A program made the position numbers and the translations under genes. Positions 62,512-63,845 of a stretch of DNA of 64,000 nucleotides are shown piece after piece. A model generated the notes under the pieces. The model searched no databases. It had not been told where the DNA came from and saw nothing but the letters and a program-made list of their open reading frames with translations. The stretch is from NCBI GenBank assembly GCA_015521775.1, contig WANN01000019.1, positions 1 through 64,000 of the forward strand. The letters are read 5' to 3'. Each line of letters starts with the position of its first letter. Position 1 is the stretch's first letter. Source of the stretch: Thermoproteaceae archaeon. Lineage in GTDB: Archaea; Thermoproteota; Thermoprotei; Thermoproteales; Thermoproteaceae.

Positions 62512-62766
62512 ATGAGGATACACGTAAGGTATCTGGGCATCCACGCCGAGATAGCCGGAATATCGGACGAGGAAGTGGAGCTCCAAGGGGGGAACAAGTT
62601 GGGGGACCTCGTGAAGCACATACTGGAGAAGTATCCCAATATGGCCGGGCTACTCGACGGCACCCAGACAGCCGTACTGAAAAACGGGATGGCGGTGGAC
62701 GACATGGGGGAGGCTCTGGAAGAGGGAGACGAGGTCGTGTTCATGCCGGCGGCCGGCGGAGGCTGA
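62512..62766 (+). CDS. MoaD/SAMP/Urm1-like ubiquitin-fold sulfur carrier
   Basis: The 84-residue beta-grasp protein starts MRIHVRYLGIHAEIAG and ends EGDEVVFMPAAGGG with an exposed glycine tail ready for adenylation by an E1-like enzyme and conversion to a thiocarboxylate. Such proteins feed sulfur to molybdopterin, to thiolation of wobble uridine in tRNA, or modify proteins (sampylation). The neighbours, a rhodanese on one side and tRNA-Lys(UUU) on the other, fit the tRNA thiolation role. No E1 gene is in the window. Confidence 0.9.
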   Translation: MRIHVRYLGIHAEIAGISDEEVELQGGNKLGDLVKHILEKYPNMAGLLDGTQTAVLKNGMAVDDMGEALEEGDEVVFMPAAGGG

Positions 62767-62817
62767 TACCCGCTCCGCCGAACAGCAAAATTTTAATTGT
62801 GGGGCGGCACCTCAATT

Positions 62818-63004
62818 GGGCCCGTAGCTCAGCCTGGTCAGAGCGGCGGGCTTTTAGGGGCCAGGGGCGGCGCAAAGCGAGGAACTTCATTGTTCCGTGA
62901 CCGAGGAGTCCCCACAAAACTTTTAATTTGTCCCAGCAATGAGGGCTTGCCCCTGGCCCAAAGAAACCCGTAGGACGTGGGTTCGAATCCCACCGGGCCC
63001 GCCA
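62818..63004 (+). tRNA. tRNA-Lys(UUU) with 109-base intron carrying an internal promoter
   Basis: Exon 1 is 62818-62856: acceptor gggcccg, D-arm gctc...gagc, stem gcggg, loop c tttt a (anticodon UUU). Exon 2 is 62966-63004: a, cccgt, T-arm gtggg ttcgaat cccac, cgggccc, g, CCA encoded. The intron, 62857-62965, sits at position 37/38 and its ends form a perfect 11-pair stem (62858-62868 with 62949-62959). The gene's TATA, aaaattttaatt at 62787-62798, is nearly repeated inside the intron as aaaacttttaattt at 62916-62929, about 20 bases before the 3' stem strand. A small hairpin ggaac/gttcc lies at 62881-62896. Confidence 0.92.
62914..62930 (+). promoter_or_regulatory. TATA-like element inside the tRNA-Lys intron
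   Basis: The stretch acaaaacttttaatttg copies the promoter upstream of the same tRNA (gcaaaattttaattgtg at 62785-62801) with few changes. Using the spacing of the real promoter (about 18-20 bases from its end to the tRNA), transcription would start near 62949, exactly at the first base of the intron's 3' stem strand. Confidence 0.5.
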
Positions 63005-63038: not shown

Positions 63039-63845
63039 CTAGTCTTTCGAAATCCTGAGCTTGAACATGGTCTCCATGTGGCGTTCAAAGGTCCCGGCCT
63101 CCAACGAGCAGTGGATGCCGCATTCCTTTGGCGTCCCCCTCTCCCACCACCACCTGCCTTTCCTGAGCTCTTCGGCTGTTATGTTGCCCGTGGCGACGAA
63201 GGTGGGGCGTGTGCATGGGGCGCACCCGATGCTGGTGTAGCCCTGGTCGTAGAGCCTGCAGTATGGGAGTCCCCTTTCCCTCACGTAGTTGGCCACGTCC
63301 TCGAACGTCCAGTCGCATATGGGGGCCAGCTTCAGTATGCCGAAGTTGTCGTGGTCTATCTGCACCTTCCTTGTGATGGCCCTGGTCGGGAACTGGTCCC
63401 GGCGCAGGCCGGTTATCCACGCGTCAAGGCCGCTGAGCACCCTCTTGAGGACGTCCACCTTACGCACCCTGCAACACAGCAGACGGTACTGGGGACCCCC
63501 ATAGAACAGGTTGGGGCCGTAGAGCCTCACCATCTCCTCCACCTTGGCGTTGTCGGGGTAGTAGACCTCCAAGTCCACCCTGTAGCGACGCCTAACCTCC
63601 TCCACCAGCTCATATATCTCCTCGGGCAGGCGCCCAGTGTCTATCATGAAGGCCCTCACCCTGCCCGGGGCCACCCTATGCATGATATCCAGAAGCACTA
63701 CGTCCTCCATCTGGCCGCTGAAGGCCAGCGCGACGTTGGGGTAGAACGTTTCCACGGCCCACCTCAACAGCTCCTCAGCGGGCTCCACCTCGAATTTCAG
63801 GGAGAGCTCCTCCACCTCTATGTCCGTCCATTCCCTCCTAGGCAT
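63039..63845 (-). CDS. cysH: APS/PAPS reductase family (CysH type, iron-sulfur)
   Basis: The 268-residue enzyme has the adenylyl-sulfate binding loop AFSGQMEDVVLLD, VRAFMIDTGRLPEE, and the [4Fe-4S] cysteines CC at 124-125 and C208, C211, which mark APS reductases; the C-terminal catalytic Cys is in KECGIHC (242). The reaction gives sulfite from APS with thioredoxin-like donors. GLRRDQFPTRA is the expected arginine loop. Assimilation of sulfate is implied, though sat or kinase genes are not seen; the partial gene at the right edge cannot be judged. The TATA-like cttaaac at 63867-63873 precedes the ATG by about 21 bases. Confidence 0.92.
   Translation of the reverse strand: MPRREWTDIEVEELSLKFEVEPAEELLRWAVETFYPNVALAFSGQMEDVVLLDIMHRVAPGRVRAFMIDTGRLPEEIYELVEEVRRRYRVDLEVYYPDNAKVEEMVRLYGPNLFYGGPQYRLLCCRVRKVDVLKRVLSGLDAWITGLRRDQFPTRAITRKVQIDHDNFGILKLAPICDWTFEDVANYVRERGLPYCRLYDQGYTSIGCAPCTRPTFVATGNITAEELRKGRWWWERGTPKECGIHCSLEAGTFERHMETMFKLRISKD

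Follow-up and report, generated by a model that had tools for sequence, protein, structure and literature searches.

A tRNA-Lys(UUU) gene of the Thermoproteaceae with a promoter-like element inside its insert, probably a same-strand, adjacent split tRNA gene

The DNA analysed here, a window of 64,000 nucleotides (nt) from an uncultured Thermoproteaceae archaeon of a hot spring (assembly GCA_015521775.1, contig WANN01000019.1, positions 1 to 64,000), carries at its end a tRNA-Lys(UUU) gene on the plus strand (62818-63001). The gene, which ARAGORN did not detect, is matched by the Rfam tRNA model RF00005 with 55 bits (E = 2.6e-10) and is interrupted at the canonical position 37/38 by an intervening sequence of 109 nt (Table 1). 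A first-pass annotation, made from the letters alone, had called a tRNA-Lys gene with an intron of this length, and both calls stood. The remaining tRNA genes found in the genome have inserts far shorter than 109 nt. A pattern for tRNA-Lys(UUU) gave one match in this genome, whose assembly is 81% complete, and one in that of a sister species; genes with non-canonical introns escape this pattern. From the promoter, folding and comparative evidence given below, we consider the locus to be probably a tRNA-Lys(UUU) gene that is split into two adjacent halves on the same strand.

Table 1. Features of the tRNA-Lys(UUU) locus; coordinates are those of the window.
Feature	Position	Strand	Remarks
Promoter of the tRNA-Lys gene / 5′ half (BRE and TATA, CAGCAAAATTTTAATT)	62783-62798	+	starts 35 nt before first tRNA base; 18.1 bits
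5′ exon	62818-62856	+	positions 1-37; Rfam RF00005 match, coordinates checked
Bulge-helix-bulge, 5′ side	62851-62857	+	central helix strand CUUU 62851-62854; bulge UA/G, cut after 62856; from sequence, fold and cofold
Anticodon TTT	62853-62855	+	within 5′ exon
Intervening sequence	62857-62965	+	109 nt, canonical position 37/38
5′ leader strand GGGCCAGGGGC	62858-62868	+	perfect complement of 62949-62959
Linker	62869-62900	+	about neutral rate, 5/32 positions differ from sister; probable end region of 5′ half transcript
Internal promoter (BRE and TATA, CCACAAAACTTTTAAT)	62912-62927	+	starts 37 nt before 3′ leader strand; 18.1 bits
3′ leader strand GCCCCTGGCCC	62949-62959	+	3′ half transcript predicted to begin at 62949
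Bulge-helix-bulge, 3′ side	62960-62966	+	central helix strand AAAG 62960-62963; bulge AA/A, cut after 62965; from sequence and folds
3′ exon	62966-63001	+	positions 38-73
CCA encoded in DNA	63002-63004	+	directly after 3′ exon

Promoters were scored with a matrix of 16 bases that was trained on the upstream 50 bases of each of the 17 tRNA genes found in the genome besides the Lys gene, and promoter strength was ranked across the window and the tRNA loci. Two sites, one upstream of the gene and one inside the insert, each composed of a B recognition element (BRE) and a TATA box, scored 18.1 bits. The insert contains a TATA-like copy, CAAAACTTTTAATTT at 62915, of the upstream CAAAATTTTAATT at 62786, as the first-pass annotation had described. 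No third site on the plus strand of the window is this strong and a single site on the minus strand reaches 18.1 bits. In a leave-one-out test the 17 training genes scored 10.2 to 23.4 bits, and 18.1 bits is higher than 13 of them. The distance from motif to tRNA in these genes is 35-41 nt; a tRNA-type promoter site of equal score stands at the right distance before each half, and the matrix-predicted start of a second RNA falls at 62949, where the 3′ leader strand begins and where the earlier annotation had expected it. When the insert interior was subjected to 5000 dinucleotide-preserving shuffles, 2 reached 18.1 bits anywhere and 0 did so at the right spacing. The 14-base core pattern CAAAANTTTTAATT has its sole exact match in the 1.40-Mb genome at the internal site, and only 4 one-mismatch matches. 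An intron spliced in cis would have a single promoter and none inside; this insert has a promoter-like site within. The likeness between the two sites is confined to the BRE/TATA element, so that copying of the upstream promoter region was rejected and the internal element is likelier to have arisen by promoter gain than by duplication.

The splice sites lie in a canonical bulge-helix-bulge (BHB), which was read from the sequence and agrees with the minimum-free-energy fold. Next to it, the two leader strands are exact reverse complements of each other and form a perfect 11-bp, G+C-rich stem with an energy of -26.7 kcal/mol as a duplex, and the cofold of the two tRNA-Lys halves gives a pairing gain of -28.2 kcal/mol. 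The first-pass annotation had placed a perfect complement directly after the 5′ exon; the complementarity is exact, but G62857, the first intron base, belongs to the bulge, so that the stem begins with the second.

These elements suggest how the gene would be expressed. The outer promoter would make a 5′ half, consisting of exon positions 1-37 with GGGCCAGGGGC as a trailer, that ends before the sequence of the 3′ half, and the promoter in the former intron would make a 3′ half whose 5′ end lies near 62949 and which consists of GCCCCTGGCCC followed by exon positions 38-73. The two RNAs would then pair through the 11-bp stem to give the BHB, of which both sides would be cut by the heteromeric splicing endonuclease, and RtcB would join position 37 to position 38. 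A minority of read-through precursor may be spliced in cis. This mechanism of two promoters and paired halves is the one proposed in the first-pass annotation and is supported by the present sequence evidence, from which we infer initiation of transcription at 62949, an end of the 5′ half before 3′ half sequence, trans-splicing as a main route and the evolutionary path described below.

The first-pass annotation had regarded such a tandem split form as proposed but rarely seen; the arrangement has been known since 2011 in Aeropyrum pernix (Chan, Cozen and Lowe 2011, PMC3218864). In that organism tRNA-Asp(GUC) has a 121-nt "intron" with a same-strand promoter and is made from two adjacent half transcripts, as demonstrated by reverse transcription PCR (RT-PCR) and northern blot (PMC3218864). 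Our pattern search recovered G178:C1:372086, which is evidently this gene (start 372080 in Table 1 of the paper; PMC3218864), and a matrix trained on the A. pernix tRNA genes puts its internal promoter 37 nt upstream of the 3′ leader and its own promoter equally far upstream of the tRNA. The tRNA-Asp gene and the tRNA-Lys gene share contiguous halves on one strand, a split at 37/38 with a canonical BHB, an internal BRE/TATA element 37 nt upstream of the 3′ leader that resembles the outer promoter, a G+C-rich leader stem, the lack of a C/D box and retention in a congener. They differ in the length of the insert (121 nt in A. pernix versus 109 nt here, with unrelated sequences) and of the leader stem (14 bp versus 11 bp), as well as in isotype, order and evidence: the A. 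pernix gene is a tRNA-Asp of the Desulfurococcales whose transcripts have been shown, and ours is a tRNA-Lys of the Thermoproteales whose two transcripts are predicted from the sequence. The best reading is that the split tRNA-Lys arose independently of the A. pernix case. It is apparently the first gene of the adjacent layout outside Aeropyrum and in the Thermoproteales, and the first for tRNA-Lys(UUU), in the open-access literature searched.

An A. pernix congener (L126, G327:C1:375665-375840) has an adjacent split tRNA-Asp of the same form. Its linker is scrambled relative to that of A. pernix and its internal promoter and 3′ leader are kept, which is the pattern seen for tRNA-Lys here. The congener lends evolutionary support to the published A. 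pernix case.

In a survey of 398 genomes of the Thermoproteota we looked for tRNA-like stretches that contain an insert of about this length, and scored those that were readable in full. Most of the stretches returned were tRNA-Trp genes. The scores across genomes are approximate, because the matrix reflects the composition of the present genome: single-gene long introns, from tRNA-Trp and others, had a best internal score of at most 9.3 bits, the internal site of the Aeropyrum pair scored 15.1 bits and promoter-bearing spacers of true tandem tRNA genes scored 12.3 to 18.8 bits. The internal site of tRNA-Lys, at 18.1 bits, falls with the genuine promoters. A rule that looks for a long non-Trp insert with a tRNA-type promoter inside it, about 37 nt upstream of the 3′ leader, cleanly parted split from cis cases in this survey and could serve as a search rule.

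The preponderance of tRNA-Trp among the long inserts raises a different explanation, namely that the tRNA-Lys insert is kept as the host of a small RNA, either an H/ACA guide or one of the C/D box type that tRNA-Trp introns contain. Most long introns of tRNA genes hold a C/D box RNA, as is established for archaeal tRNA-Trp as a class. The tRNA-Lys insert resembles these introns in being long and at the canonical site, but the contents are reversed, since tRNA-Trp introns hold a guide RNA and no promoter-like element. The insert has no CTGA D box, its best C-box match has 2 mismatches and none lies within one, no Rfam small-RNA family scores above its curated cut-off in the insert, and the sole candidate hairpin and its flank are altered in the sister species, with a 2-nt deletion. 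A guide RNA of either type was rejected on these grounds, and we regard this explanation as highly improbable.

One congener was available for comparison, Thermoproteales archaeon isolate T2_metabat1_scaf2bin.089 (G001, contig JALWZH010000136.1), and this sister species retains both exons, both leader strands and the internal promoter of tRNA-Lys. Because this separately assembled genome has the same structure, an assembly artefact was ruled out. The first-pass annotation had advised an alignment with close relatives to see whether the internal TATA is kept; in the only close relative it is, and the promoter is identical throughout its 16 bases. The block that contains it (62901-62948) has changed at 1/48 positions and the leader strands at 0/12 and 0/17, and the difference between the linker and the promoter plus 3′ strand gave p = 0.014 in a Fisher test. 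For reference, the upstream non-coding stretch has diverged by 16.5%, and fourfold sites of neighbouring reading frames by 21%, an estimate from mechanically picked frames of which some are long frames on the strand opposite the likely gene. Scanning of GTDB contigs for tRNA-Lys with inserts of 85-115 nt returned the sister record only, in a scan that may omit the window's own genome.

Several observations weigh against a split gene. The nearby flanks also evolve slowly (3/110), so that the promoter block is not unusually conserved beside them and its conservation is suggestive rather than decisive. The split-type tRNA-Lys is carried by only two closely related species. In the sister (L002/L059) a 3-nt AAG insertion precedes the 3′ splice site, the intron ending in AAAGAAGAA with A after the cut; its BHB is therefore less canonical, and its central helix must either include a G-U pair, with GAAG as the strand, or give way to a larger bulge. 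No clear terminator follows the 5′ leader of tRNA-Lys. Finally, the continuous precursor folds into the BHB in cis, and this structure would equally well permit one 184-nt precursor to be spliced in cis in the ordinary way.

The last point, together with the slow flanks and the many introns known in tRNAs of the Thermoproteales (PMC8450103), would fit a tRNA-Lys that is spliced in cis in the ordinary way and whose intron is unusually long; its TATA-like box would then be an AT-rich stretch arisen by chance, or a promoter that is weak and of no consequence. This is, however, hard to reconcile with an internal site whose strength and spacing match those of tRNA promoters and are reproduced in 0/5000 shuffles, or with the genuine cis long introns of our survey, which have no such site. 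Moreover, the only archaeal intron longer than 100 nt outside tRNA-Trp that was known to Chan et al. is the split A. pernix tRNA-Asp itself (PMC3218864). We thus consider purely cis-splicing unlikely.

A further alternative is a dual mode, with an internal promoter that fires and cis-splicing of the long precursor that yields most of the mature tRNA, the 3′ half being a by-product or an adjuster of supply. The gene is contiguous without a strong terminator after the 5′ leader, its stem works in cis and in trans, and in A. pernix a 199-nt read-through RNA was found as a trace by RT-PCR alone (PMC3218864). That full-length RNA was, however, too rare for northern blot (PMC3218864), and such a mode leaves unexplained why selection would retain the promoter of a by-product; we judge it quite unlikely. 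The split gene remains our preferred interpretation.

Related genera suggest how the split tRNA-Lys may have originated. Other genera of the family have a tRNA-Lys with either no canonical intron or one of about 20-25 nt that has the same kind of stem and no TATA. The first-pass annotation had held that relatives with the stem but not the TATA-like copy would speak against its idea; the introns of these genera are short altogether and therefore point instead to the long, promoter-bearing insert as a derived gain in this genus. The short canonical introns of tRNA-Lys in the Thermoproteales share the 37/38 position, the BHB and a G+C-rich stem with the present gene but are hairpins without room for a promoter. 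Since the family's introns are short, about 80 nt have replaced the hairpin loop in this genus, and we found only short, weak matches to this 80-nt interior in the genome and 43 relatives, besides the sister's copy. The gene would thus have evolved from a short canonical intron like that of its relatives by expansion of the hairpin loop and gain of a promoter in the loop.

The origin of split tRNAs is usually ascribed to genome rearrangement or mobile-element insertion. Tentatively, the locus may instead be a living transition state that yields one precursor for cis-splicing as well as two halves for trans-splicing, and that became split in place by loop expansion and promoter gain, without either process. 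If so, the ratio of the cis and trans routes would be directly measurable and might be regulated.

Dispersed split tRNAs are known from Nanoarchaeum equitans, Caldivirga maquilingensis and Staphylothermus, in the last as tRNA-Lys(CUU), and have two transcripts, complementary leaders, a BHB and the splicing endonuclease in common with the proposed tRNA-Lys halves (PMC3218864, PMC4390854). Their halves lie apart in the genome (by about 4.5 kb in Staphylothermus), whereas those described here are contiguous, and the tRNA-Lys(CUU) of N. equitans and Staphylothermus is split at 30/31 and is another isoacceptor than the UUU gene split at 37/38. Split tRNA genes may be either relics or late inventions, a matter under debate (PMC3218864, PMC4390854). 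The A. pernix tRNA-Asp was until now the lone same-strand adjacent case, and tRNA-Lys would be the second, in another order and for another isotype. Because the relatives of this apparently independent case have no more than a short hairpin intron at that site, it would show how an intron is turned into a split gene, along a path in which the loop grows, a promoter appears within it and the intron stem turns into pairing leaders.

The splicing machinery was identified in part in each of the two genomes. The present genome encodes a splicing endonuclease beta subunit, a 96-aa open frame (L147, G000:C33:11959-12171) whose best match is the Pyrobaculum protein PAE0789 (2zyz; E 1.5e-20) and which falls below the Pfam tRNA_int_endo cut-off. 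The alpha subunit is present in the sister and was not found in this genome, of which the assembly is 81% complete, and the RtcB ligase is in both. By these homologies, the genus has the machinery for a heteromeric endonuclease and RtcB.

The tRNA-Lys gene lies between a gene for a ThiS-family protein (62512-62766; the protein ends in GGG) and a convergent gene for 3′-phosphoadenosine 5′-phosphosulfate (PAPS) reductase (63039-63845). An internal promoter that serves another gene was considered and is unlikely, because the downstream PAPS reductase gene runs towards the tRNA and the upstream ThiS-family gene is already complete where the tRNA-Lys promoter begins. PAPS reductase is nearly absent from related genera; its only close homologue outside the genus (L184, 70% identical) has no recognisable tRNA beside it.

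In two other tRNA genes (L132 and L133; G108:C19 and G129:C24) the D-loop carries an insert. The insert starts with ATTTAAATACTGGA and ends with TCCAGTATTTAAA or a near form of it, and is a long inverted repeat with AT-rich ends that lies inside the tRNA in two genomes of one genus.
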